Both the position numbers and the translations under genes were made by a program. DNA of 32,458 bases from assembly GCA_028281705.1 (NCBI GenBank), contig JANQJH010000017.1, positions 1 to 32,458 on the forward strand, written 5' to 3'. The notes under the pieces were generated by a model. The model did no database searches. It worked only from the letters and a program-made list of their open reading frames with translations, and was not told the DNA's origin. Below, piece by piece: positions 10,881 through 32,458 of this stretch (its first letter is position 1; each line of letters begins with the position of its first letter). Origin of the DNA: Verrucomicrobiales bacterium. GTDB taxonomy: Bacteria; Verrucomicrobiota; Verrucomicrobiia; Verrucomicrobiales; DEV007.

Positions 10881-11117
10881 ATGATGATTGATACACCGGA
10901 GATCCTGGATGCCTTTCGGCATGACATTCCCTTGAGCGAATCTCAGCTCCACGGGGTCTTGGATTTCGTCTGGAATAATCCCGAACTCAAAGAGTCCTTT
11001 CTTCGAGAGCGCGCCTGGGATCGCATGTTGGCGGATGCCTTCGCGGAGATCTCTGTCCCGCCAAGGCTGAATGCCCAGATCCTGCAGAACTACGCGAAGA
11101 CACGCCCGCATGACTAG
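10881..11117 (+). CDS. Small protein resembling the N-terminal domain of the downstream anti-sigma-like protein
   Basis: A 78-residue soluble, acidic, helical protein starting at ATG 10881 (alternative starts are GTG 10859 and TTG 10854). Its core (WNNPELKESFLRERAWDRML, then EISVPPRLNAQILQNYAKTR) aligns with residues about 30-75 of the membrane protein at 11703-12509 (DKHSDVAEWFECEKARDEDF, then EIEIPEGLEESILRFANRE). It thus looks like a free copy of the cytoplasmic, presumably sigma-binding, domain without a membrane anchor. Its last codons overlap the start of the ECF gene (ATG at 11110, stop at 11115-11117), which suggests translational coupling. A role as a soluble anti-sigma or accessory regulator is inference. 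Confidence 0.65.
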   Translation: MMIDTPEILDAFRHDIPLSESQLHGVLDFVWNNPELKESFLRERAWDRMLADAFAEISVPPRLNAQILQNYAKTRPHD

Positions 11118-11676
11118 TACCACTCATCCAACAACAATTGATACCGGGCTTCTAGTCCGCCCAACCAACACCCAGACGATGGCAGAATCGAATGTGGAAT
11201 TCGAGCGGGTTGTTTCCGCCTACTATCAGGACCTCTATAGGTTCGCTTACAGCCTTGCAGGGAACGAGGCGGATGCAGTCGACCTCACTCAGCAAGCCTT
11301 CTACCGCTACGCGCGGAAAGGAGACACGATTCGCGACGTCTCCAAGACCAAGAGCTGGCTCTTTCGCACGCTGAAGAATGAGTTTCTCAATCAAGCGCGA
11401 CGTCAGCAACGGTTTCAGCACGTCGAAATTGACGATGCTGAAAGCGAACTTCCACAGGAGGAGGCGCAGCCAGGTCGGAGCATCGACCAGAAAATGGCGC
11501 TCCACGCCTTGAACCAGGTCGATGAGAACTATCGAGTTGCCGTGGCGTTGTTCTACATGAGGGGACTCGCCTACCGCGAGATCGCCGATGTGCTGGAGGT
11601 GCCCATCGGGACCGTGATGTCCCGCATTTCCCGTGGCAAAGCCCAGCTCAAGCAGGCGCTGGGCGATCAATGTTAA
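11110..11676 (+). CDS. ECF RNA polymerase sigma factor
   Basis: A 188-residue ECF sigma factor. Region 2 is visible as VVSAYYQDLYRFAYSLAGN, EADAVDLTQQAFYRYARKG and SKTKSWLFRTLKNEFLNQAR; region 4 as ALNQVDENYRVAVALFYMRG, LAYREIADVLEVPIGTVMSR and ISRGKAQLKQAL, which contains the helix-turn-helix. The ATG at 11110 overlaps the upstream small gene by 8 bases; an internal ATG at 11179 just before the first helix is an alternative. The membrane protein that follows is the likely anti-sigma factor. The group to which the ECF belongs and its target promoters cannot be told from the window. Confidence 0.92.
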   Translation: MTSTTHPTTIDTGLLVRPTNTQTMAESNVEFERVVSAYYQDLYRFAYSLAGNEADAVDLTQQAFYRYARKGDTIRDVSKTKSWLFRTLKNEFLNQARRQQRFQHVEIDDAESELPQEEAQPGRSIDQKMALHALNQVDENYRVAVALFYMRGLAYREIADVLEVPIGTVMSRISRGKAQLKQALGDQC

Positions 11677-11702
11677 CCCTCTTACCGGCCCCAATCACCA
11701 CC

Positions 11703-12509
11703 ATGACGAAAGATCACATGAAGGCGACCCTCGCTTGCTACCGAGAGCACAGTGTGGACGAAAATTTCCCCCACTTTCGAGAAGCACTTGCGCAACTCGA
11801 CAAGCATTCCGACGTGGCAGAATGGTTCGAATGCGAGAAAGCCAGAGACGAGGATTTCAGTGGAGCCTTGAATGAGATTGAGATCCCCGAGGGGCTCGAG
11901 GAATCCATCCTACGCTTTGCCAACCGCGAAGAATCCGATGGCGTCGAAAGTGGCCGGGTGATTCGGCCTGCCCTTGCCATGTGGAAGCGCACCGCCTGGA
12001 TGTCTGCAGCGGCATTGATCATCGTTGCGGCGTCGCTAGTGAAGTACTTTGCCTTCCCTCCTCCGGTCGTTTTTGATCGAACCGAGTTCAGTCACGTAGA
12101 CGCATTTCGCGAAGATATGGGATATTTTGCCAGTCAACGCTTTGTGCTCGATCACACAACCAAGGATCTTTCGAATGCCAAAATGTGGCTGGAGGAACGC
12201 GGCCACCCTGTGTATGCGAAGACGCCGGACGCCATCGTCAATTACCGTGGTATGGGTTGCAAATCCTTTCAGTGGGGCGATCACCACGTGAGTCTGGTTT
12301 GCTTCGAGAAGGATAACAAAGAGCTCGTCCATCTCTTTGTCATCGAGCGGGAGGGTCTTGACGGGTCCATTCACGAGGCGGAGGATCTTTCTCGAATGTT
12401 AGTCAAACACGAGCGCGAAACCGGCGGGTGGTACGACGATGAGCATGTTTACGTGCTCGTGGGTTCGGAACCAGGCGTCGAAATTGGCGAAATCCTCCGG
12501 GAAATATAG
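11703..12509 (+). CDS. Membrane anti-sigma-like protein
   Basis: A 268-residue protein (279 if ATG 11670, which overlaps the sigma stop, is used). It has a cytoplasmic N-terminal helical domain of about 90 residues, one membrane segment (about residues 96-117: WMSAAALIIVAASLVKYFAF) and a C-terminal domain outside the cytoplasm. This topology and its place directly after an ECF gene indicate an anti-sigma factor. The N-terminal domain has no HxxxCxxC motif, so it is not of the zinc-binding type. The outer domain contains GMGCKSFQWGDHHVSLVCFE, with two cysteines and a pattern seen in outer domains of other anti-sigma proteins. The two cysteines could be redox-responsive (inference). The next gene is the UxxU protein. 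Confidence 0.8.
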   Translation: MTKDHMKATLACYREHSVDENFPHFREALAQLDKHSDVAEWFECEKARDEDFSGALNEIEIPEGLEESILRFANREESDGVESGRVIRPALAMWKRTAWMSAAALIIVAASLVKYFAFPPPVVFDRTEFSHVDAFREDMGYFASQRFVLDHTTKDLSNAKMWLEERGHPVYAKTPDAIVNYRGMGCKSFQWGDHHVSLVCFEKDNKELVHLFVIEREGLDGSIHEAEDLSRMLVKHERETGGWYDDEHVYVLVGSEPGVEIGEILREI

Positions 12510-12575: not shown

Positions 12576-13619
12576 ATGAAATTGAAATGCTTTCTCAATA
12601 CGGTCCTTGCAACGCTTGCTCTCACAACGGCCGTTTCTGCCCAAGAACTTCCAGTCGGCTCAACCGCAAGAAATGTAGAGTTTGCGCTCTTTGAGAGCGG
12701 GCTTATGAATTCACAGTTGAGCAACTTCTCCGGACAGATCATCGCGCTCTATTACTACACGCCCTGGTGACCGGTCTGAGGAACAGCTGGCCGCCAGTTT
12801 GGCGGCGAAATTGCAGAATACTATCAGGAGGCTTCCCGTGGAACCAATGTGTCTCGCAATGATCAAAGCGTGCCTATTACCTTCATTGCGTTGGGAATTG
12901 AGCCAAATGGGTTCGATTCTAGTGTCGCCAGCTTTGCGGAGAATATCAGCTTCAATCATGCCGGTCTCGACTTAGTCGATGATGGGGGTAGGCGATCTCA
13001 GATTCGCAATGGTTTCGCACACTTTTCCGGTGAGCCTGCGGAGAGAACTCCGGGCCAAGTAAGCATCAACGAACGGCGCCGCTTTGTCATTCTCGACGGT
13101 CAACCTGGACCGAATCAATGGGAAGTGCTCTACATTGCGAACGACTTCTCACGGCGGGATACTGAGAGTGTCAGAGCCATCATCGACGCCGTGTCACCTT
13201 CGGGCGATGGGGGCAATTCCACACCGGCGCCGGATCTCTCGATGCTGGACAGTGACGACGATGGATTGAACGATGCCTTCGAATTGAGTCACGGATTGGA
13301 TCCCGAGGACGCTTCCGATCGAGACGGAGACGCCGATGGTGATGGCCTGTCAAACATTCAGGAATTCCTCGCCGGGACCTCGCCGAGCGATCCGGAATCG
13401 AGACTAACAATAACCGATGTGCGGGCTTCAGATGCGGAAATTGGCCTGCGTTGGGAAAGCGTTCCCGGTGTCACCTATCAAGTGGAGGCGGCTGAGAACT
13501 TGGATGCAGAGGTGTGGGACATCGCAATGAATGTCGTCGCCGAGGGAGAGCGCGCGGAAGCTGTCCTTGATCGCGATTCGAGGCAGTTCTTTAGAGTCCG
13601 TGTTGTGGATCCAGACTGA
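12576..13619 (+). CDS. Exported thioredoxin-like selenoprotein with a UxxU motif (two in-frame TGA codons)
   Basis: Read through TGA at 12768-12770 and 12777-12779, the frame gives 347 residues. A signal peptide (residues 1-22, ending VSA) is followed by a redoxin domain: VGSTARNVEFALFESG, LSNFSGQIIALYYYTPW, then U65-P-V-U68, GTAGRQFGGEIAEYYQEA, VPITFIALGIEPNG and QWEVLYIAN. Thioredoxin-like proteins have W-C-x-x-C exactly here, so both cysteines are replaced by probable selenocysteines. No frameshift occurs and similarity continues downstream. Residues about 224-272 are acidic type-3 repeats (DSDDDGLNDAFELSHGLDP; DRDGDADGDGLSNIQEF), then a C-terminal beta module ending FFRVRVVDPD. A hairpin at 12790-12806 is a candidate SECIS. 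Without recoding, translation would end after 64 residues. The product should be a secreted thiol/selenol oxidoreductase. The alternative is a pseudogene with two nonsense mutations. Confidence 0.85.
12790..12806 (+). promoter_or_regulatory. Candidate bacterial SECIS hairpin for both TGA codons
   Basis: GCCGCC (12790-12795) pairs perfectly with GGCGGC (12801-12806) around the 5-base loop AGTTT. The loop begins 16 bases after the second TGA and 25 bases after the first. Described bacterial SECIS elements have a short stem-loop inside the coding sequence roughly 16-37 bases after the UGA, with a G among the first two loop bases; all these points hold. One hairpin may serve both codons. Confidence 0.7.
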
Positions 13620-13729
13620 TTTTGGGGTGGGTTTTTAAGGCGGATTCCCACGGCGGTCGCACGGGGCGGATTGAAGAGCTTTTTGTCTAGCAAGTAGGCC
13701 TTGCGTTGTGGCAGAACTGCAAGAGGATC

Positions 13730-16147
13730 ATGCAAAGACAACCCCGACGCATCGCCTTATTTGTCCTCATCGCGCTTGCGAGTTCTCTAGCGACGTCGTT
13801 TGCTGAGGGAGAGGGCAGGCCAAACATCATCTTGATCATGGCCGACGACATCGGCGTTGAAGGGATCGGTTGTTACGGTGGAACGAGCTACAAGACGCCT
13901 GCCCTTGATCGGTTGGCCGCGCAGGGGATCCGGTTCACCCATGCGTACGCCCAGCCGCTCTGCACGAATACGCGCGTCCAGTTGATGACCGGCTTGTATA
14001 ACAACCGGAATTGGCGCTATTTTGGAACACTGGATCCGAAAGCGAAGACGATCGGGCACTACATGCAGGATGCGGGGTACCGCACCTGCATCGCGGGCAA
14101 ATGGCAGTTGCAGAGTTACGATCCGCCAAGCTATCCCGGCGCCCACTTGCGTCGTGGCAAGGGGATGAAGGTCTCTGATGCGGGGTTCGATGAGTACAGC
14201 TTGTTTCATTCGTGGCACACGGAGGACAAGGGCTCACGATTTGCCGATCCGACCATCTATGAGAACGGCGAGCTCTTACAAGAACTCAAAGGGAAGTACG
14301 GGCCAGACCATTGGGTCGAATTCATCAACGAGTTCATCAGTCGAGAGAAGGACGATGACCAACCCTTCTTCGTATACTACGCGATGGCACTACCCCACCG
14401 CCCGTTCGTGCCCACGCCGGACAGCGCCGATTGGTTAGACGAGGCGGCGCATGCAACTGAGGACCCACGTCATTTCCCGGACATGGTGGAGTACATGGAC
14501 AAGTGCGTCGGTCGTGTCGTTCGGCACGTCGACGACCTGGGGCTTGGTGACAACACCTTGGTGATTTTCTATAGTGACAACGGCACCCACCGGAAGATCA
14601 CTTCGGAGACAAAGACTGGCCCGGTGATCGGCGGCAAGGGGCGCACCACGGATGCGGGGACGCATGTGCCCCTGATGGCTCGATGGACGGGGAAGATCGA
14701 GGTGGGGCTCAACGAGAACCTTGTGGATTCGACCGATTTCTTACCGACGGTCATGGAAGCAGCGAGGCGACCGATTCCCGGCGAGGCAAACCTCGACGGG
14801 ATCAGCTTCTATCGTCAGTTGTTAGGCGAGTCGGATCGCGTTCGCCCATGGGTGTTCTGTCACTACGATCCGCGTCCAGGATGGGATAAGGATCAGTTCA
14901 GGAAGATACGTTTCGCGCGGGGCAGGCGGTACAAGCTCTACGGCGACGGAAAGCTCTACGACGTTCCGAATGACAAACTGGAACAGCGACCGATCCTCGC
15001 CTCCGCCGCCTCTGTAGAGACACGGCAGGTACGCCAGCGGCTGGCTGAGGTGCCGAAGGCGATGCCTAACCCAGACCCGGCGCCGCGGGATGGCGATCCT
15101 AACGAATCCGAGCAACGATTGTATTTGGCTGCGGGCGGCCAACTCTCCGTCTATGAAGTCAATAAGGAGAGTGGCGAACTGTCTCTTCTTCAGGAACTTC
15201 CACTCGACGGCGCAGGGCCGTTCACCTTTGCTCCGAATCGCAAGTTGATGTACGCCGTGGCCAAGACATCGGGATCGCCCGCGATTGCGTCGCTGAATAT
15301 TGGGGAGGGCGGCAAGCTCGAGCTTGTCTATCAGGCGAAGGTCAAATCCCAGCCCGGCTATCTGATGACGGACAACAACGGCGAGTTCCTGGCGGGAAAC
15401 CACTATGGGCCGGGCAAGGCGACCATCTGGAAAATCGACCCGATTTACCGCGGTGTTGCCACTCAAGAGTTGGCGCTCGAAACGAAGGCGCACAGTGCGG
15501 TCTTCTCACCGGACAATCACTGGCTACTCGTCCCGGCGACGGGACCCAATAAGGTCTTTGTCAACCACTTCACGGCGCAGGTTGGGACCTCCGAACCTAA
15601 CGATCCACCCTTCGTCAGTGGTCCCACGGGCGAAGACGAGGCTCGGCAACCGCGGCACCTGATCTTCCATCCCAACCTGTCCATCGCCTACACGACTAAC
15701 GAGCGCGAAGAGCCCGGCGTGGGCGTTTGGCAATGGGATACGGAAAGAGGGACCCTGACGCCCATGCAGAATATCGTGACTCAACCAAAGGGCTTCGATG
15801 GCAGCATCACCACGGCCGACCTTCACATGACTCCGGATGCCCGATTCTTGTACGTGTCCAATCGAGACATTTCCCAACGTGGCTCGCCTGCCGGGGAAGA
15901 CAGCATCGTTGGTTTTGGCGTCGATCCTCAGACAGGACACTTGAAGTTGCTTGGGCACTACCCATGTGAGCGCGTTCCCAGATCATTCACCATCGATAAG
16001 CTGGGCAAGTTTTTGTACGTTGCCGGTCAGGGCGATGCCCGGCTGGGTGCGTATCGGATCGAGGAGTCCGGTGCCCTGAAGAAGATCAAGCAGTATGAGG
16101 TGGGCAAAGGCCCAATCTGGATTGAAACGCTGTCGATTCTTGAGTGA
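13730..16147 (+). CDS. Exported sulfatase fused to a lactonase-type beta-propeller
   Basis: An 805-residue protein with a signal peptide (about residues 1-26). Residues about 30-440 form an arylsulfatase-type (S1 family) domain: metal-binding PNIILIMADD (D39, D40), active-site segment LCTNTRVQLMTG (C78), AGKWQLQSY, DNTLVIFYSDNGTH and the following G-K-G-R segment. The active-site box is C-T-N-T-R, so the usual proline or alanine of C-x-P/A-x-R is replaced by asparagine. Residues about 465-805 are a propeller like 6-phosphogluconolactonase (PF10282-like): EQRLYLAAGGQLSVYEV, FHPNLSIAYTTNE, TTADLHMTPDARFLYVSNR and GKFLYVAGQGDARLGAYRI. The ATG at 13730, preceded by AAGAGG, is preferred over TTG 13706. 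Sulfate removal from a polysaccharide or small molecule is likely; the role of the propeller is unknown. Confidence 0.88.
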   Translation: MQRQPRRIALFVLIALASSLATSFAEGEGRPNIILIMADDIGVEGIGCYGGTSYKTPALDRLAAQGIRFTHAYAQPLCTNTRVQLMTGLYNNRNWRYFGTLDPKAKTIGHYMQDAGYRTCIAGKWQLQSYDPPSYPGAHLRRGKGMKVSDAGFDEYSLFHSWHTEDKGSRFADPTIYENGELLQELKGKYGPDHWVEFINEFISREKDDDQPFFVYYAMALPHRPFVPTPDSADWLDEAAHATEDPRHFPDMVEYMDKCVGRVVRHVDDLGLGDNTLVIFYSDNGTHRKITSETKTGPVIGGKGRTTDAGTHVPLMARWTGKIEVGLNENLVDSTDFLPTVMEAARRPIPGEANLDGISFYRQLLGESDRVRPWVFCHYDPRPGWDKDQFRKIRFARGRRYKLYGDGKLYDVPNDKLEQRPILASAASVETRQVRQRLAEVPKAMPNPDPAPRDGDPNESEQRLYLAAGGQLSVYEVNKESGELSLLQELPLDGAGPFTFAPNRKLMYAVAKTSGSPAIASLNIGEGGKLELVYQAKVKSQPGYLMTDNNGEFLAGNHYGPGKATIWKIDPIYRGVATQELALETKAHSAVFSPDNHWLLVPATGPNKVFVNHFTAQVGTSEPNDPPFVSGPTGEDEARQPRHLIFHPNLSIAYTTNEREEPGVGVWQWDTERGTLTPMQNIVTQPKGFDGSITTADLHMTPDARFLYVSNRDISQRGSPAGEDSIVGFGVDPQTGHLKLLGHYPCERVPRSFTIDKLGKFLYVAGQGDARLGAYRIEESGALKKIKQYEVGKGPIWIETLSILE

Positions 16148-18041: not shown

Positions 18042-19799
18042 TTATAATTTCGCCGCTTCCGTGCTTGTCGTCACGATAAGCTGGTAGGCTCCGATCTCTT
18101 TCCCGCCCTCGTGCCGAATGGCCTCAAGCCTAACTTCGCCCTTCGACATGTTGACGCCGTCGAAGCGGACGCGACCTGCTTTGGAGGTTTTCTGAAAAAC
18201 TTGATCACCCACTTTCAGGCTGACCGTGGCTTCGTCGCCCGTCACCACGGTGGGATGAAAAATGACTTCGATCTGCGCCGTCACCGGCACGGCAGCTTCG
18301 ACGACCCAGTGGCCCATGGCGCCCGCCCCCCAAGTGGTGCCGAGCCAGTCCTGGCGAGTCAAGGCGGTGGGGTTCTCGTGCGCCGTCCCAATGATCACTC
18401 GGGGTGGGGCATAGTTGTCAGGGCGCGTGCTCGAGACGTCGGCAAACCACGCCTCGTAGTCCTTCTTCAGGCGAGCCAGCACCTCTGGCCGTTGGCTGGC
18501 GAGGTTCTTCCCTTCCTTCGGATCGTCCTTGAGATTGTAGAGTTCAAATTGCGGATCGCCGTCGAAGCGCTCCTTCCCGAAGCCGGAGGCGTGGAGCAAT
18601 TTCCAGTCTCCATGCCGCAGCATGAAGTGATGATAGCGCTGCGCCGAGGTGCCGCGGTGGGATTGGATCACGATCTGCCGGTCCGGCCACTCCGTCGACT
18701 GCGGTGCGGTGAGTAGCCCGAGAAAACTGCGGCCGTCGAGTGCATGAGGGCCTGCTTTGGCACCGCAAGCTTCGAGGATCGTCGGCATGACATCGATGTG
18801 CGCCGTTAGCGCGTCCGCCTTCGTGCCCGCCGGGATTTTGGCAGGCCAGTGCAACCAGAAGGGCGAGCGGATGCCGCCCTCGTGAACGTTGGACTTCATC
18901 CCGCGCATTTCGCCGACGTATCGCATCGTGTTCGGGCCATTGTCGTTCATCCGAATGACCATGGTGTTCTTTAGAAGCCCGTTCTTTGTCAGGTGCGTCA
19001 CGAGGCGGCCAACGTTTTGATCTTCGTTCGTGATCATGGCGGCAATGCGTGCCAGTTGATCCTGTACTTGCGCCTTGCGTTCGCCCTTGGGTGGACGGGC
19101 TTGAAGCACCGTGAGGTCCTTGGTCATGTAGTGCTGGCGCAGTTCCTCCGGCACGTCGTGGTAGGGGCCGTGCGGCGCATTCGTCGGTAGGTAGACGAAA
19201 AATGGTTTTCCCGTCCCATCGCCGATGAATTCGAGCGCGGCGTCGAAGTAGACATCCGTGCAGAATCCTTTTGTTTTCACCGCTGCCCCGGTTTCATCAA
19301 AAAGAATGGGGTCCGTGTAGCGTCGCTCGTTCTCCAGCGGCTCTGAGGGCTGTGCGAGACCGCCGCCGCGATGCATGAGGACCTCGTCGAATCCCTGATC
19401 CTGAGGCCGCATGGGATAACAATCACCCAAATGCCACTTTCCGAAAAGCCCGGTTCGGTAGCCGGCCTCCTTCAGCGCCTCCGCCAGCGTGAACTCGTCC
19501 GGATCCATCATCGAGCGGCCCAGCCACGTGTCGATGCAGCGCGTCCTTTGGTTGTAGCGCCCCGTCATGAGCGACGCGCGCGTCGGCGAGCAAACCGGGC
19601 TGACGTAAAAGGTCGTCAGGCTGCCGCTGTTCGCCGCCAAGGCATCGATGTTAGGCGTCTCGATCAGAGAGTTGCCATGGATCCCGAAATCTCCGATTCC
19701 CTGGTCATCGGTCATCATGAGGATCACGTTGGGGGCATCATTCGCTCCTGCGAGCTGGGAAGTGGCGAGGAGGGATAGGAGGACGGCAAGGTGTCGCAT
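18042..19799 (-). CDS. Exported arylsulfatase-type sulfatase
   Basis: A 585-residue sulfatase with a signal peptide ending near LAGAND. It has NVILMMTDDQGIGDFG (D31, D32), the active-site box VCSPTRASLMTGRY (C70), FGKWHLGDCYPMRPQDQGFD, FFVYLPTNAPHGPYH, and VIRMNDNGPNTMRYV followed by MRGMKSNVHEGGIRSPF. As in its downstream neighbour, a C-terminal beta-rich extension (GHWVVEAAVPVTAQIEVIF and following) comes after the catalytic domain. The sequence is close to, but clearly distinct from, that of 16225-17985, so the pair may act on related substrates. It is the first gene of the putative two-gene operon; the promoter should lie in the region holding the CotH remnant upstream. Confidence 0.92.
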   Translation of the reverse strand: MRHLAVLLSLLATSQLAGANDAPNVILMMTDDQGIGDFGIHGNSLIETPNIDALAANSGSLTTFYVSPVCSPTRASLMTGRYNQRTRCIDTWLGRSMMDPDEFTLAEALKEAGYRTGLFGKWHLGDCYPMRPQDQGFDEVLMHRGGGLAQPSEPLENERRYTDPILFDETGAAVKTKGFCTDVYFDAALEFIGDGTGKPFFVYLPTNAPHGPYHDVPEELRQHYMTKDLTVLQARPPKGERKAQVQDQLARIAAMITNEDQNVGRLVTHLTKNGLLKNTMVIRMNDNGPNTMRYVGEMRGMKSNVHEGGIRSPFWLHWPAKIPAGTKADALTAHIDVMPTILEACGAKAGPHALDGRSFLGLLTAPQSTEWPDRQIVIQSHRGTSAQRYHHFMLRHGDWKLLHASGFGKERFDGDPQFELYNLKDDPKEGKNLASQRPEVLARLKKDYEAWFADVSSTRPDNYAPPRVIIGTAHENPTALTRQDWLGTTWGAGAMGHWVVEAAVPVTAQIEVIFHPTVVTGDEATVSLKVGDQVFQKTSKAGRVRFDGVNMSKGEVRLEAIRHEGGKEIGAYQLIVTTSTEAAKL

Positions 19800-19979
19800 G
19801 CCGTTTCCTAGATCGGATCGCCCGGCTGGAAAAGACCAAAAACTCAGCTTCGGCGTGGAGGGTGGACCCCGGCCGTTTCTGTGCCGCCAAAACGATCAGA
19901 TGGACGGCGAAGGTGTTGCCTTGGGAAGGCCACTGAACATGCTCTGGGCGCCAACTCGCTAAGGCGCTTCGGTAACGAG

Positions 19980-20350
19980 CACCCTGAGTCGTCATCGCCG
20001 TAGGTGATCTCTGCGATGAGGGCGCCACTGCGGCGAGGAGGCGTAGTGTTTCTCCTCCGTTGGCGAGACGGCCTTGGAACTGTCCCAGAATGCGCCCTCC
20101 GCTGGGGTAGGCCGTTTGCACCGCCACGGGACCATTCTCCAGGCCAACGCCGAACGGTCCTGGCATTGATGCCCATTCATTTCCGCCGAGCATCCATGCT
20201 TCGGCCGGCGCCTCGCCACTGGCGTCGAGTTGCCACTGGTCGTCCGGCTCGATGAGCGGCAGCATTTCCTCGAGTGGATGGGCAAACTCAAGTACCTGAG
20301 CCCGAAAGATCCTGGTCCCTTCGTCATGCGTCGGCTGACAAAGGTCGAGT
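19980..20350 (-). pseudogene. Remnant of a CotH/lamin-tail type protein
   Basis: On the minus strand one frame reads [51 protein letters not shown] and then AYPSGGRILGQFQGRLANGG, nearly the same as AYPSGGRVLGQFQGRLNNGG in the lamin-tail domain of the gene at 29949-32458. After ETLRLLAA a single base missing relative to that gene (CACTGCGG versus CACTGGCGG) shifts the frame, and similarity continues as GALIAEITYGDD in the next frame. No complete gene can be assembled, so this is a decayed fragment. Confidence 0.7.
19991..20113. repeat. Duplicated DNA segment, copy 1
   Basis: This 123-base segment (GTCATCGCCGTAGG to GCTGGGGTAGGCC) is close to identical to 30459-30582, differing by scattered substitutions and one missing base. 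It is the DNA basis of the CotH/lamin-tail remnant. Confidence 0.85.
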
Positions 20351-26894: not shown

Positions 26895-28586
26895 ATGAAA
26901 AAAAGAAAAACGATCGTTCTGATTTCGGTTTGGTTCCTCTTGAGTTGGAGTCGATCTGTGGCTGACACCAACATCACTTTCCGAGTGATGGACAAAGAGT
27001 TGAGCACTCCATTGGTGGACGCTCGAATCGAGTTGGAGATGTCCGGATTATCTGAGGACCAAGCGGTGGAAAACGGATCGACGGATCGCGAGGGATATTT
27101 CCGCTCGTCATCAACGTTGGAAAGCGGAGAAGCTGCGATGATTACAGTTCGGAAGCCCGGGTACGTACCGTGGCGGTTCAGCTATCGCGAGGACGGTGGG
27201 CGTCAATTCATTGGGCGGGGAGAGGAGGTCGCGGTGCCGGCTTGCAGACCGATCGGCGGAGTCGTGGTGGACGAGAACGGAACTCCAATTCCCGAGGTGA
27301 AGGTGGCGCTGAGCATCCCGCAATCCCTCGCCGGCCCGCGCATTCCTGCATCTGACTTAGCGGCGACAGCTTCGTTGTCCGGCGAATGGAAGTCCGATGC
27401 TGTTCCAGCGGACGTGCGCTACATTCGAGTGGAGGTTCAGCATCCGGATTTCAAGATGCTCGGCGGCAAACCTGAAGACTTGTCCGTCGAAGCCCTTCAG
27501 GCGCTAAAATCCGTCGTTCGCATGAAGGGTCTCTGTCGCCTCAAGGGAATCGTTGTGGATCCAGCAGGAACTCCGATCGCGGGAGCAAAAGTGATTGTCG
27601 GAGGTGAGTGGGGTGTGAGGACGTGGGACGATAATCCGTCTGTGGAAACGCAATCCACGGGCAGTTTCCAGTTGGATCTACTCAACGTCGGTAAACGCAT
27701 GTTAGTCGCTGAAGCGGATTCCTGGGCGCCCGCCACACTCATGCTAGATATCCGCAAGGGGATGGAACCAGTGGAAATCCGACTGAAGGCACCTTCGACG
27801 ATTTCTTTAAGAATCACGGACACGGAGGAGAAGCCGATCGCCAACGCGGCCGTTTCTGTTTGGGAGTGGGAAAACTACACTCATCCGGGTTGGGAGTTCC
27901 GATCTGATGCGGAGGGACGAGTTGTCTGGACGACGGCGCCGGAAGGTGTCGTGTCGATCAATGTGAGCAAGCCCGGATATATCAGACGGCGACATATCCC
28001 GGTAGGCGCTGGCCCGGAGGAGCACGTCATCAAGTTGGATCCAGAACCCCGCCCCACCGGCATCGCAACCGACGCTACGAAGGGCACGGAGGGGCCGCTC
28101 CAGCGTGCTGTAGCCATGCCCTTGCCAGGTGGGAATTTGAAAAACCTGGCGAAAGCCGTTCCGGATCCCGGGGAACCCAATGAGAAACGTCGGCTGACCG
28201 GGAGCATGAAAGCGATTCCGCTCAATCGGGAGGCGGGCGGAGCCTTTGCGCTGGTTATTCGGCTTCGCCTGCTCGACGGCCACCATGTCTACCCGATGGG
28301 CGATCCCGATGAGAATCCGGCGGCGACGACGCTTAAGCTCGATCTGCCGGAGGGATTCGAACCGAAGGGAGATTGGGTGGCGTCGGACGCCGTCAAGAAA
28401 GCCGGAACACCTGTCTACAGGGATGAGGTCGTTTTTGGCAGAGCCATCCAACTACCGAAAGGTGCCGTGGCTGTAGGCAAAACGCTAGAATGCAGAATCG
28501 GTTACCAGATTTGCAATGATTCCGTCTGCTGGCCACCCGCCGAACTTCCACTGGAGACGATACTGGAGATTCAAGAAGATAAATAA
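26895..28586 (+). CDS. Secreted protein with carboxypeptidase-regulatory-like domains and a DsbD-alpha-like C-terminal domain
   Basis: A 563-residue protein with a signal peptide (about residues 1-24). The N-terminal 380 residues contain three or more Ig-like carboxypeptidase-regulatory-type domains, each with a G-x-V/I-V-D-x-x-G-T-P-I core (GGVVVDENGTPIPEVKVAL; LKGIVVDPAGTPIAGAKVIV; DTEEKPIANAAVSVWEW). The last 120 residues resemble the N-terminal (alpha) domain of the thiol:disulfide interchange protein DsbD: LRLLDGHHVYPMGDPDENP, TTLKLDLPEGFEP and GYQICNDSVCWPPAELPLE, with two cysteines in C-N-D-S-V-C. In DsbD this domain passes electrons to outer-membrane-side partners. No membrane or thioredoxin domain is attached here. 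The next gene, 57 bases on, is the UxC protein, so the two may be partners (inference). Confidence 0.72.
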   Translation: MKKRKTIVLISVWFLLSWSRSVADTNITFRVMDKELSTPLVDARIELEMSGLSEDQAVENGSTDREGYFRSSSTLESGEAAMITVRKPGYVPWRFSYREDGGRQFIGRGEEVAVPACRPIGGVVVDENGTPIPEVKVALSIPQSLAGPRIPASDLAATASLSGEWKSDAVPADVRYIRVEVQHPDFKMLGGKPEDLSVEALQALKSVVRMKGLCRLKGIVVDPAGTPIAGAKVIVGGEWGVRTWDDNPSVETQSTGSFQLDLLNVGKRMLVAEADSWAPATLMLDIRKGMEPVEIRLKAPSTISLRITDTEEKPIANAAVSVWEWENYTHPGWEFRSDAEGRVVWTTAPEGVVSINVSKPGYIRRRHIPVGAGPEEHVIKLDPEPRPTGIATDATKGTEGPLQRAVAMPLPGGNLKNLAKAVPDPGEPNEKRRLTGSMKAIPLNREAGGAFALVIRLRLLDGHHVYPMGDPDENPAATTLKLDLPEGFEPKGDWVASDAVKKAGTPVYRDEVVFGRAIQLPKGAVAVGKTLECRIGYQICNDSVCWPPAELPLETILEIQEDK

Positions 28587-28643
28587 CGAGCGTTGCTGCT
28601 GGGTCGGTTCGACCTGGCGGTGGTGCCGATAACCGAAAGACCT

Positions 28644-29942
28644 ATGAAGCCATCACATGTTCTGAAAATAATCGCCATCTTCCTACTAATGGGTGTCCCA
28701 TCTGGTGATGCCGCGGACCTCGACCGATTGAAGCTGCTCTATGTAGGTGACTCCGAAAGCGCCCGGGCTCAAGAGTTTACGGGCTTTCTGGAGATGAACG
28801 TCGGTTCGGTCGAGTTCGCATCGAGGGAGAATTTTCAGCCGCAGCGAGCAAAGGGATTCGACGTGGTGCTTCTAGATTGGCCGCAGTCGTCGGAAGCTCG
28901 GCTAGAACGGGGAATGGGCAGCCCGCTGGGAACTCGATCCACCTGGAACAAGCCAACGGTGCTGCTGGGGAGCGCGGGACTCAATCTCGCCGTGGCGTGG
29001 AGCCTTCGCGGTGGATCCGGGTGAGCATGCCTCTATCCATTCGCGTACGGGCTACGCGAGCACATCGTTTTCGACCGACCGTTCTCAATCGACACATCCG
29101 CCGTCATCCAGCGAGCCACGCCGACCGCGTTCAAATCGGCGGTCCCTGATCCGAGAGTCGAGATGCTTCCCTTGGTGAGACAGCTCCAGCGGCGATGGGA
29201 CGCGGGTTGGTGTACCTACACGGACGGATTTGATAACAATCCCGATGTTGAAGTTTTCAGTGGCGGCGAGAACGAAAAAACGGCGACGGCCGCCGCGCTC
29301 TGGCGACAAGGAAACCTGCTACATTTTGGGTTCGAACAGTCGCCCGCAGAAATGAATGAAATCGGCCAGAAGTTGCTGTTGAACTGCATCGCCTATATCA
29401 GTCGATTCACGGAAGACCGCCCCATTGCCGTCACTCCGTCCGTTTTCGGCGGCACGGTCGCCTATCCTCGAACGTATCTCGATCGGCGCCTCAAAGACAA
29501 AGGCGACGTGGACGCTGCTTGGCGATTCTTGAGCGCGAAGACCCAGGACAAACTGGTGACCTTGGAAAAGGAGGAAGTACGCCAGTGGTACGCGGAGAAC
29601 CGGCCCTACCTACATCCGGACGAGAGTCAGAAATTGGAGGTGGATGTGGAAGCGAAACTGCTGGGCGCTCCGATCGATGATTTAGAGTTCTTTTCCAAGA
29701 CGGTCGCCGCATTGAGCGATTCAACTCTATCCGAATCGGCGAAACGACTTCTTCGTCGATACGGACCGGAAGAAACCCATGGACTGAAATCGGCGAAGGA
29801 ATGGCAGGAATGGGTGCGGGCACACCGCCTGTATCTCTTCTTTTCCGATCAAGGAGACTATCGCTGGTATGTCGATCCGCTAGCGAAAAAGCGCGGCGTT
29901 CCTTCAGTTGAACTCCGGGGGTCCGCGAGGGCGTCGGATTGA
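28644..29942 (+). CDS. Exported probable selenoprotein with one in-frame TGA (U-A-C motif)
   Basis: Read through TGA at 29022-29024, the frame gives 432 residues. The ATG at 28644 opens a signal peptide (MKPSHVLKIIAIFLLMGVP, cleavage near DAA). Segments such as LKLLYVGDSESARAQEF, GFDVVLLDWPQ and KPTVLLGSAGLNLAVAW look like a Rossmann-type, glutamine-amidotransferase/ThuA-like fold. U127 lies in GGSG-U-ACLYPFAYGLREH; the rest (GWCTYTDGFDNNPDVEVFSG, LLHFGFEQSP, LLLNCIAYISRF) continues without frameshift for 305 residues. A cysteine in place of U would give a C-x-C motif. A strong hairpin follows at 29040-29060. The C-terminal 170 residues are charged and helical. Without recoding the gene would be read as two fragments. 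Function is unknown; a redox role is inferred from U-x-C and from the DsbD-alpha-like neighbour. Confidence 0.82.
29040..29060 (+). promoter_or_regulatory. Candidate bacterial SECIS hairpin
   Basis: TCGCGTA (29041-29047) pairs perfectly with TACGCGA (29053-29059) around the 5-base loop CGGGC; a T-G pair at 29040/29060 adds one more. The loop begins 23 bases after the TGA and has G at its second position. This matches the general description of bacterial SECIS elements and parallels the hairpin at 12790-12806. The stem lies in the codons for F-A-Y-G-L-R-E. Confidence 0.75.
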
Positions 29943-29948
29943 AGTTGG

Positions 29949-32458
29949 TTATAGTGGATCCGCAATGAGAGTTCTCAGCCGAATGAAAACCTGGTGGCCA
30001 CGCTCCTCGCTTTCGTCTTTATAGGAGACAATCACGCGGCCGTTTTCATTCACAGTGCTTACGACCTTGAAGGTTTCTACGGCACTCCACTGCACGAGAT
30101 CCGGGGAAACCTCCAGAGAGATCTGAAGATCAGTCGCTCCGGCGCGTTTGGTGATTCTCAAGGTGCCGTCGGGCATGAAGCGGGGCAGCGTGTGCGCGGA
30201 GTTTTCCTCCGGATGCCCGCCCAAGGCGTACTCCATGAGGTTGGTCAGGCCGTCGCCATCCTCGTCGCCGTCATCGTCGGTGATGCCGTGGGATTGTTTC
30301 CAAGAGGCGTAGTCGATGGGCGTCGCCGTATCGGGCGTACCCGTGCCCGGACTGCCTCCCTCTTCCGGGCTCACCGTCCAGCTGGCGGCCTCATTGGTGT
30401 CGCCACTGACATAAACCAGGCTGCGCCCGCCGCCGTCGGCGTCCGCGGGCCAGGGTTCGTCATCGCCGTAGGTGATTTCTGCGATGAGGGCGCCACTGGC
30501 GGCGAGGAGGCGGAGCGTTTCTCCTCCGTTGTTGAGACGGCCTTGGAACTGCCCCAAAACGCGCCCCCCGCTGGGGTAGGCCTCGGTAAATGCCGCACTG
30601 TCCTGGACGAGGACGGCGCGTTCGCCCGGTTCGAGGGTGAGGTCGTCGAAGGTGAAAACGACGCCATCATCGAAGCGCGTGCCTTCAAGGAGCACCGTGG
30701 CATCACTGCGATTCCACAGTTCGATGAACTCCGTTGGGGTGTTGTCCGCTGGATGATAATGAATCTCTGAGATAGTCAGATTGTCGCTCCTAGCAAAAAC
30801 CTCAGTCGCCGTTCCGGTGACGGTGATGCTTGCCGTCCCAACGGGTTCGTCCCGGAGGTTGAAGGCCTCCAGGCGAATGGCATTGGCTCCGACCGTGACG
30901 GGGATATCCAGGGACCAACTGGAGGCGTTGCGCCAGGTCAGGGGCAGGGAAAAGGACTCATTCTGGAGACGGATTTCATCGACATCGATCCACCCGCGTC
31001 CTTGCAAAGTCACCAAGGGTTGATCCGTGGAGAAATCATCACCGCCGTTGGTGGTAATGGCGAAGTCGACCGGGTCGGGCAATTGGTTGCGGGCGAAGTT
31101 CGCGCGGGACCGGACATAGCTGGTCACACTGTTCAAGTTGCTGCGAAAGAGAGATCCGTAGTGTCTCGCCCATCGGTCAACGTAATCTTCGTTGTAGACG
31201 GAGTCTAGCATGTCAAGAAGGTGGCCGTGAAAACGCCGTAAGTTCGCCGGGCGTTCCAGGAGGAGGGGAATGGTCACTTCCGTACCGTTGTTGTTTCGTT
31301 TGCCGATCAGGGGGGAACTGGAAGCGAGGCGCCAGGCGCGGTCGAAGTCCCAGGGGAGGGCCAGCAGACGGTCGTCCTCTGCGCGATGATAGAGGCGGAG
31401 GTTGTGTTCCCACAGACGGGTGTAGAAATCGTCGTTGCCATTGAGCGCCATCATGGCAAAGGCCCGCGTCCACTGGTCGATGTCAAAGGCAGCCTCCGTG
31501 GCGGCATCGAAAGCGAGTTCCTCCTCCATGGCGCGAGCGGCTCTGACAATGGCCCCATACTGATCGCGGTCGCGGCCGCTTCGGATTTGAAAGCCCCAGC
31601 GGTAGGCCTCCTTGTCATCGCCCATGACGCGGAAGTCGTAGCGGCCGTTGTCGTGGGTGTAGGGGAAGGGGCGTTTGGGCGATTCCGGGCGCCCGTCGAG
31701 CGTGGCCTGTGGCGTGTAGAGCAGTTCCAGATTGAAGACAGTGCCCTCACTGGCATTGTCGAAAGTGCCCCGCAGGAAGGGCCCCGAGGTGCGTCCCATG
31801 AGGAGGAGGACGCGGCCGGTGAAGCTTGGCTGGTCAAAGTCGAGCTGCACGACATCGTTGTAGTAGCTCGGCAGCTTGCCGCCTGCGGCGTAGAACAAGT
31901 GTTGGGCCACGATCTCGCCCTTGCCGGGATCGCGCTCCAGGGAGACCGTTTCATGCACGCCGCGAAACGGATGTTCGGGGTCGAAGCGAACGTTGAGGCC
32001 CTGGAAGGGAGTGTTGTTTCTCGCCCAGGCACTACCCTTCAAGCGGATGCCGACGTTGTGATAGGCGATGTCCTTGTAGATCACGGTGCCGCCGATGCGG
32101 TCGTTGCTCATGCGGTTGGCATCCTCGAAGAGGAAATCGCGATCTTTCTTCTCCATGAGTACGCGAAAGCGATGGGGGCCATCCTCCAATTCCGCATCAT
32201 CCACGACTTCATACATGGCACGGGCATCCGGGCCTTCGCGGGGAAAGAAATTCGTGTTGCCCAAGGTGTCCGTGGCGGTCACGTGAATTCTAACCAAGTC
32301 ATCAACCGGTCTTCCCGGAATCGTCGCCGCGTAGAGATCATCTTCCTCCTGCTGCATGTCGATCACGTGTGTGCCGCCGGAGAAGAGGGTGCCGCCGTTG
32401 ATGGCGTAGGTGAGGGTGAGGGAATCGATCCCGTCCGGATCGGAGGCGCGAACCCGCA
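29949..32458 (-). CDS. CotH-kinase and lamin-tail domain protein (5' end outside window)
   Basis: The frame is open to the right edge (codons upstream of GTG 32366 read RVRASDPDGIDSLTLTYAI), so the N-terminus is missing. The visible 835 residues comprise a preceding beta domain, then a CotH-type kinase-like domain (IYKDIAYHNVGIRLKGSAW, LNVRFDPEHPFRG, GNDDFYTRLWEHNLRLYHR, LLALPWDFDRAW), an Ig-like segment, a lamin-tail domain (ISEIHYHPADNTPTEFIEL through AYPSGGRVLGQFQGRLNNGG), an acidic type-3-like repeat (DGDEDGDGLTNLMEYALGG) and a C-terminal beta module. CotH of Bacillus phosphorylates spore-coat protein; exported members in Verrucomicrobiota have no known substrate. It is convergent with the UxC gene, with 6 bases between the stops. 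A decayed relative lies at 19980-20350. Confidence 0.88.
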   Translation of the reverse strand, partial: RVRASDPDGIDSLTLTYAINGGTLFSGGTHVIDMQQEEDDLYAATIPGRPVDDLVRIHVTATDTLGNTNFFPREGPDARAMYEVVDDAELEDGPHRFRVLMEKKDRDFLFEDANRMSNDRIGGTVIYKDIAYHNVGIRLKGSAWARNNTPFQGLNVRFDPEHPFRGVHETVSLERDPGKGEIVAQHLFYAAGGKLPSYYNDVVQLDFDQPSFTGRVLLLMGRTSGPFLRGTFDNASEGTVFNLELLYTPQATLDGRPESPKRPFPYTHDNGRYDFRVMGDDKEAYRWGFQIRSGRDRDQYGAIVRAARAMEEELAFDAATEAAFDIDQWTRAFAMMALNGNDDFYTRLWEHNLRLYHRAEDDRLLALPWDFDRAWRLASSSPLIGKRNNNGTEVTIPLLLERPANLRRFHGHLLDMLDSVYNEDYVDRWARHYGSLFRSNLNSVTSYVRSRANFARNQLPDPVDFAITTNGGDDFSTDQPLVTLQGRGWIDVDEIRLQNESFSLPLTWRNASSWSLDIPVTVGANAIRLEAFNLRDEPVGTASITVTGTATEVFARSDNLTISEIHYHPADNTPTEFIELWNRSDATVLLEGTRFDDGVVFTFDDLTLEPGERAVLVQDSAAFTEAYPSGGRVLGQFQGRLNNGGETLRLLAASGALIAEITYGDDEPWPADADGGGRSLVYVSGDTNEAASWTVSPEEGGSPGTGTPDTATPIDYASWKQSHGITDDDGDEDGDGLTNLMEYALGGHPEENSAHTLPRFMPDGTLRITKRAGATDLQISLEVSPDLVQWSAVETFKVVSTVNENGRVIVSYKDESEERGHQVFIRLRTLIADPL
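30459..30582. repeat. Duplicated DNA segment, copy 2
   Basis: This part of the lamin-tail coding sequence is nearly identical to 19991-20113; it has one more base, which keeps its frame intact. The two copies lie in the same orientation about 10.5 kb apart. Confidence 0.85.

Follow-up and report, generated by a model that had tools for sequence, protein, structure and literature searches.

The DNA analysed here is a stretch of 32,458 nucleotides from a Verrucomicrobiales bacterium (contig JANQJH010000017.1), referred to as the window. In it, a frame for a thioredoxin-like protein is crossed by two TGA codons at the positions of the catalytic cysteines, and the question arises whether these codons are read as selenocysteine (Sec, U) or are the marks of a broken gene. 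A previous sequence-only reading had favored a double-Sec active site, arguing that random decay would not place the same codon on both sites and leave the rest of the frame open. We consider, with a probability of around 0.9, that 12576-13619 is a selenoprotein gene with UGAs on both catalytic cysteine positions and one shared SECIS element at 12790-12806. The double-Sec interpretation is supported by relatives with cysteine, by the presence of selA, selB and selD and by a conserved hairpin, with tRNA-Sec as the gap.

Results

A Frame With Two Internal TGA Codons

The read-through frame (12576..13619, + strand) comprises 348 codons including the terminal TGA, and its only stops are codon 65 (12768), codon 68 (12777) and codon 348 (13617), all of them TGA; exactly two internal TGAs in an otherwise open frame had been claimed, and this proved correct. 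UGA1 (12768..12770) and UGA2 (12777..12779) lie in the context YYYTPW-U-PV-U-GTAG, as previously described, and would encode Sec65 and Sec68, positions 1 and 2 of a UxxU motif. The third TGA (13617..13619) is read as the stop, and since the gene itself terminates on this codon, UGA still works as a stop in it.

Residues 1-22 (MKLKCFLNTVLATLALTTAVSA; 12576..12641) are predicted to form a signal peptide, with a basic start, a hydrophobic core and an A-x-A-type site when the translation is read by eye. The only TGC/TGT codon of the gene is codon 5, within this predicted signal peptide, and the mature protein would therefore be devoid of cysteine. The thioredoxin/TlpA-like domain follows (residues 23-213, 12642..13214), and then acidic repeats of the thrombospondin type-3-like (bacterial TSP3) kind (residues 225-275, 13248..13400). 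These type-3 repeats had also been pointed out, and they are indeed visible in the sequence, in two stretches matched by Pfam TSP3_bac, although the score of 19.2 bits is under the Pfam cut-off of 25. The C-terminal module (RLTITDV...LRWESVPGVTYQVEAAENL...FFRVRVV; 13401..13616) resembles the C-termini of other proteins of the genus with different N-terminal parts, in many matches that span only residues 220-345 approximately, and judging from this distribution it is probably a module of secreted proteins.

A predicted model of the domain, with Sec modelled as Cys, had a pLDDT of 96.5 and a pTM of 0.92, and its structure matches were DsbE/ResA/TlpA-type structures (3gl3, 1su9, 2ls5) and peroxiredoxins, in line with a predicted thioredoxin/TlpA-like fold. 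One arginine, directly before the central strand, is invariant in the 29 aligned members of the family described below, and none of the 29 has a proline at this place, which corresponds to the cis-Pro position according to the alignment. Two TlpA-like relatives (L106 and L168) read I-P-H where the family has Arg-Arg. An arginine before the central strand is typical of peroxiredoxins.

Upstream on the same strand there is a gene for an ECF-type sigma factor (11071..11676; Pfam Sigma70_r2 2.1e-13, Sigma70_r4_2 3.6e-12), overlapped by a gene for a possible anti-sigma-like membrane protein (11670..12509) that ends 66 bases before the Sec gene; the latter had an NCBIfam anti-sigma match under cut-off (E 0.038) and no match in the Pfam search. 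No such pair was seen beside eight other family members (ORFs inspected by eye, first 70 residues), so that genomic context gives no role and a function deduced from these neighbors was rejected. On the other side, the window contains an 813-residue frame (13706-16147, + strand) fusing a sulfatase and a lactonase-type seven-bladed propeller.

Exchange of Selenocysteine and Cysteine Among Relatives

Of the eight best protein-database matches, one was a fragment of the window and the other seven were outside proteins with lengths of 228-254 or 256 residues. According to their protein records, all seven begin past the motif, where gene callers that ran into in-frame stops would be expected to place the start. 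At the DNA level, 74 genomes of the window's family were searched in six frames, with up to 28 candidates scored per genome. Each of the four genomes of the genus (the window's genome, G000, and its congeners G050, G051 and G052) contained further members, and most of these had exactly two TGAs. In the order, a profile was run against 386 genomes drawn from a larger group, with up to eight candidates scored per genome, and gave additional members with two, one or no TGA. The numbers of members are lower bounds, given the few candidates scored in each genome. Not counted as family were TlpA-like sequences in G278, G292, G346, G353 and G056, with WCGPC where the motif could be read, a partial match without the motif in G214, G051:C74 (WCPPC) and G050:C540, where no motif was found. 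In a draw from the phylum, five of 387 genomes matched at E 1e-8, including G000 and G157; the other three gave partial TlpA-like matches with WCGPC/WCPFC and were left out.

The motif was read in 31 members from the genus and the order. UxxU was found in 18 (10 from the genus and 8 from the rest of the order), UxxC in 8 (2 and 6), CxxC in 5 (0 and 5) and CxxU in none. The Cys-x-x-Cys that homologues had been expected to carry at the TGA positions is thus present in five of the 31. Position 1 is TGA in 26 members and TGC/TGT in five, and position 2 is TGA in 18 and TGC/TGT in 13. The 26 TGA-bearing members are distributed over 18 genomes, and their TGAs always fall on these one or two codons: at position 1 all of them have TGA, and at position 2 eight have Cys. 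The window's genome has at least five such genes, four with UxxU and one with UxxC. A search for the pattern PWUxxU/C gave 50, 21, 48 and 34 matches in G000, G050, G051 and G052, respectively, versus 9, 5, 7 and 8 with the reversed pattern. All 12 known members of the genus were among the matches listed, and the rest, counted as pattern matches, may include further members. A scan of the contigs of the window's genome gave 17 loci whose best segments fell nearly all on the TSP3/C-terminal part, and these were set aside.

Some members depart from the general layout. In two of them with UxxU, L062 (16197 region) and L065 (4705 region), the redox domain is separated from the C-terminal module by long modules of GYRF-x-W-x-G-type repeats, which in L062 are accompanied by an extended Glu-Pro tract. 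L067 has an additional TAG downstream, and L070 (G050:C57, ~2412-2935, - strand) is a decayed copy in which PW-U-PF-U-G is intact and a frameshift and a TAA interrupt the reading frame; SelA, SelB, SelD and tRNA-Sec all remain in its genome. A small membrane-protein gene next to L070 resembles one located upstream of the UxxU gene of L062. L067 and L070 were counted among the 31 members and excluded from the alignment (A5) and the tree.

On the tree of the remaining 29 members, at least six changes among UxxU, UxxC and CxxC are needed, which indicates that Sec and Cys replace one another in the family. The clearest case is that of L087 and L088 (CxxC), near-identical to L091 (UxxC): L088 (G356) and L091 (G234) share 292 of 317 residues and differ at site 1 in TGC versus TGA, with a dN/dS of 0.13 before the site and 0.25 after it. 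In two UxxU pairs, dN/dS past the TGAs was 0.09 (L092/L095) and 0.11 (L096/L098), revealing purifying selection on the sequence beyond them. For the window gene and its nearest relatives, values upstream of the TGAs were 0.24 and 0.18, and downstream of them synonymous sites are saturated.

A Conserved Hairpin Behind the TGA Codons

A predicted bacterial SECIS hairpin is located at 12790..12806 (+ strand), where 12790-12795 would pair with 12801-12806 around the loop 12796-12800 (AGUUU). With numbering that starts at the T of UGA1, the stem joins bases 23-28 to bases 34-39, and the five-base loop, mostly AGUUU or AGGUU in the family, starts 25 nt from UGA1 and 16 nt from UGA2. All six pairs are formed in the window, and the minimum-energy fold is this hairpin. 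Among the 26 TGA-bearing members, 84.0% of the 156 cells (six pairs in each member) are paired, compared with 59.9% in shuffles (0/500 as high), and the covariation score was 0.663 versus 0.213 in shuffles (0/500 as high), with versions of the hairpin slid along the alignment reaching at most 0.281. There was no excess of pairs changed on both sides (5 versus 4.3 in shuffles, 221/500). Since the hairpin lies within coding sequence, synonymous codon recoding was used as a control: 131 of 156 pairs were observed against 82.9 (s.d. 4.9) expected, and none of 5000 recodings was as high. In the five CxxC members, 11 of 30 pairs were formed versus 11.6 expected, that is, with no excess of pairing. 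Pair 27-35 is present in L091 and is broken in L087/L088 by a synonymous difference in an Arg codon (CGG/CGC). The hairpin is conserved beyond the needs of the protein and is under selection of its own, which answers in the affirmative the question of a SECIS-like element behind the TGAs.

According to the available text of PMC13188914, the bacterial SECIS model there has a loop of 3-9 nt, a stem of 4-16 bp, a G in the first two loop positions, a spacing of 16-37 nt and an energy of -7.5 kcal/mol or lower. The window hairpin falls within these values, with its AGUUU loop at 25/16 nt, a 6-bp stem and -14.2 kcal/mol over the scanned stretch, and the energy limit was missed by L069 (-5.5 kcal/mol) and L096 (-7.1 kcal/mol) over the same stretch. 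Folding of single sequences was not decisive as proof of a SECIS: the hairpin regions of the 12 genus members, folded one by one, were not clearly more stable than shuffles (z from -2.10 to 0.88; -1.16 in the window). A generic scan was mixed: its best uninterrupted hairpin coincided in position with that of the family in 19 of 26 TGA-bearing members and in none of the five CxxC members; the seven TGA-bearing members in which it did not were L062a, L066a, L066b, L069, L091, L105 and L107. An Rfam scan of the window gave no match at the gathering threshold. The SECIS was thus decided solely by covariation and synonymous recoding.

Selenocysteine Machinery

A search for selA, selB and selD had been suggested, and all three are encoded in the window's genome, with SelA (493.1 bits), SelB (265 bits, truncated by a contig end) and SelD (364.3 bits) over cut-off; the same three proteins scored over cut-off in each of the four genus genomes. 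In the window's genome (L151, G000:C92) and in G051 (L152, G051:C23), SelD contains an in-frame TGA in KTC-G-U-AAKIDP, the site where Sec-containing SelD proteins carry Sec, and from its sequence it is likely a selenoprotein itself. In G050 and G052, SelD is part of a longer frame of around 795 residues without TGA.

The outcome for tRNA-Sec was mixed. In the window's assembly (678 contigs, 91% complete) none was over cut-off, the best matches being other tRNAs. In G050 and G051 it was over cut-off, with ARAGORN agreeing on a tRNA-Sec(UCA), and it was not found in G052; it is therefore present in two of the three congeners. The joint absence of selB and tRNA-Sec had been named as evidence against Sec: selB is present and only the tRNA is missing, from an incomplete assembly. 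The window's assembly lacks a close counterpart of the gene that adjoins tRNA-Sec in G051, which is weakly consistent with a stretch lost from the assembly. The counterparts of this gene in G050 and G052 sit on other contigs, the one in G050 not on that of tRNA-Sec.

SelB was over cut-off in 17 of the 18 genomes with TGA-bearing members and in 3 of the 11 other matched genomes (Fisher p 0.0003, relatedness ignored). When only strong family matches were considered, the figures were 17/18 versus 2/5 genomes (p 0.02, in a small sample and also ignoring relatedness). The exception is G336, which has a UxxU member and no SelB over cut-off in an assembly that is 88% complete.

A Second Candidate Gene in the Window

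Another frame of the window (28593-29942, + strand), with the gene itself placed at 28644-29942, has a single in-frame TGA at 29022-29024, in the context GGSG-U-AC-LYP, and all 12 homologues aligned, out of 120 listed, have Cys at that position (GGSGCTCLxP). On the basis of this alignment, it is likely a second selenoprotein gene. A candidate hairpin (29041-29059, + strand), with a CGGGC loop 23 nt after the UGA, was not more stable than shuffles (z 0.34). The gene matched no Pfam family at E 1 and is absent from the three congeners. One homologue, P0149, begins just past the site, as if cut at the stop, and another, P0056, is fused to DsbD_N; the next gene upstream in the window (26895-28586) ends in a DsbD_N-like part. 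In addition, two distinct ORFs of the window (~19738-20265 and 30371-30706, - strand) share the stretch AYPSGGR-x-LGQFQGRL-x-NGGETLRLLAA, a repetition that suggests a partial duplication.

Discussion

Alternative Readings of the TGA Codons

It could be argued that the gene is a pseudogene or contains sequencing errors, the two TGAs being a result of decay. The source assembly is fragmented, with its 678 contigs, and broken copies do exist in the family, as the frameshift and TAA of L070 in G050 and the TAG of L067 illustrate. However, the same codons are TGA in all 26 TGA-bearing members, protein identity and low dN/dS persist beyond them and the hairpin is under its own selection. For the family as a whole, decay and sequencing errors are rejected because the TGAs are kept across 18 genomes, which bears out the previous argument against random decay, and for the window gene we regard them as very improbable. 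There is a similarly slim chance that UGA is read here as a different amino acid, such as Cys by a selC-like tRNA-Cys(UCA), or Trp. Relatives do carry Cys at these positions, tRNA-Sec is absent from the window's assembly, and Cys-charged selC-like tRNAs are known elsewhere. On the other hand, SelA, SelB and SelD are present, ARAGORN finds an ordinary tRNA-Sec(UCA) in two congeners, the SECIS-type hairpin covaries with the TGAs and the gene also terminates on UGA. This last fact leads us to discard a reassignment of UGA throughout.

Somewhat less remote, and still unlikely, is that only UGA1 encodes Sec and that UGA2 often or always acts as a stop, so that a product of 67 residues, or a regulatory mechanism based on early termination, would result. 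Eight of the 26 TGA-bearing members have Cys at position 2, whereas position 1 is TGA in all of them, and whether a member has UxxU or UxxC, its hairpin lies 25 nt from UGA1, as if placed for that codon. Nevertheless, the 16 nt between UGA2 and the loop are within the 16-37 nt range in the available text of the published model, UxxU is the commonest state, and UGA2 is followed by a long, conserved frame that shows purifying selection in the UxxU pairs L092/L095 and L096/L098 (dN/dS 0.09-0.11). An internal start at GTG 12849, from which gene callers would annotate a short secreted protein of 256 residues lacking the active site, matches an ORF permitted by table 11, and the nearest database proteins are cut likewise. 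Its product, however, would be left with half of the conserved domain and no signal peptide, and the sequence before the TGAs shows conservation at the protein level (dN/dS 0.18-0.24 to the nearest relatives), which makes this start hardly credible.

Proposed Mechanism and Meaning

If the gene encodes a protein with two Sec residues, as we favor, SelB with Sec-tRNA would bind the hairpin at 12790-12806 and serve UGA1 and then UGA2, so that a single shared SECIS would lead to the decoding of both as selenocysteine, and the protein would be exported. Since position 1 is Sec in every TGA-bearing member and position 2 varies, Sec65 would attack as the nucleophile and Sec68 would resolve. The oxidised state would be an internal Sec65-Sec68 diselenide, the only internal oxidised form available to a mature protein without cysteine, and selenium would confer speed and resistance to over-oxidation. 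Within the selenoprotein reading, our best guess, at about even odds, is that the protein acts as an extracytoplasmic TlpA/ResA-like thiol or peroxide oxidoreductase.

For the family as a whole, we lean toward a picture in which a lineage of Verrucomicrobiota has multi-copy, exported, all-selenium U-x-x-U proteins whose secreted scaffolds are modular and contain TSP3 or repeat domains, where one SECIS directs the insertion of Sec at two codons separated by six bases and close relatives switch between UxxU, UxxC and CxxC. The first Sec would be fixed and the second optional, which would make the diselenide a tunable rather than a fixed feature. If this is true, an exported multi-copy family joins the small set of proteins with a pair of seleniums in the active site, and provides a compact example of a single bacterial SECIS hairpin for two UGA codons; a diselenide active site in an exported enzyme would be rare. 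There would also be a natural series of UxxU, UxxC and CxxC versions of one domain, some of them nearly identical, with which what the second selenium buys becomes directly testable. Automatic annotation halves such genes, as the nearest database proteins, all beginning past the motif, illustrate.

Comparison With Known Systems

The extracytoplasmic thioredoxins of the ResA/TlpA/DsbE type are similar to the window protein in predicted fold, probable export and the W-x-x-x context of the active site, but the family has Sec for Cys and, in 29 of 29 aligned members, no proline before the central strand (I-P-H in L106 and L168). The window protein also has UxxU in a predicted thioredoxin-like fold, as in SelL, a family with a thioredoxin-like fold and a diselenide bond that is present also in marine bacteria. 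Eukaryotic SECIS elements sit in the 3' UTR. By its description in the available text of PMC3316567, where Shchedrina et al. 2007 (doi 10.1073/pnas.0703448104) is cited, SelL has two Sec residues, two residues apart, served by one SECIS, and no multidomain architecture with TSP3 is attributed to it there.

Prx-like thiol:disulfide oxidoreductase selenoproteins (PF00578, AhpC-TSA) with UxxC/UxxU have been reported in the available text of PMC9312934 and PMC13188914. As in the family, their active site is of the thioredoxin type, the first position being Sec and the second either Sec or Cys, and the UxxC/UxxU redox motif is found in 26 of the 31 members. The window domain scored 19.5 bits with AhpC-TSA, below the curated cut-off of 26, and 12 of 29 members matched at E 0.01 or better; because of this score, the domain is compared with PF00578 and not filed under it. 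Unlike those proteins, the branch of the window is verrucomicrobial and linked to the Sec machinery, and has a signal peptide, TSP3 repeats and a C-terminal module; with respect to the TlpA-like relatives in this comparison, it has Arg-Arg where those have Pro. The Prx-like 2 family of the GOS data, from marine bacteria, also contains UxxU sequences, but it has low similarity to pfam04592 (SelP N-terminal), as stated in the available text of PMC2398784; no Pfam match to pfam04592 was found in the window protein at E 10 or better.

The sequence-only reading had called an exported UxxU protein with such repeats poorly described. As regards UxxU itself this does not hold, since it is already known from SelL and from Prx-like (PF00578) oxidoreductases. 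As regards the exported TSP3 architecture the claim stands, no description of such a UxxU family having been found in our searches of the open-licence literature. As far as our searches show, what is new within that literature is this exported TSP3 architecture, together with the presence of several copies per genome and the close series of UxxU, UxxC and CxxC relatives.
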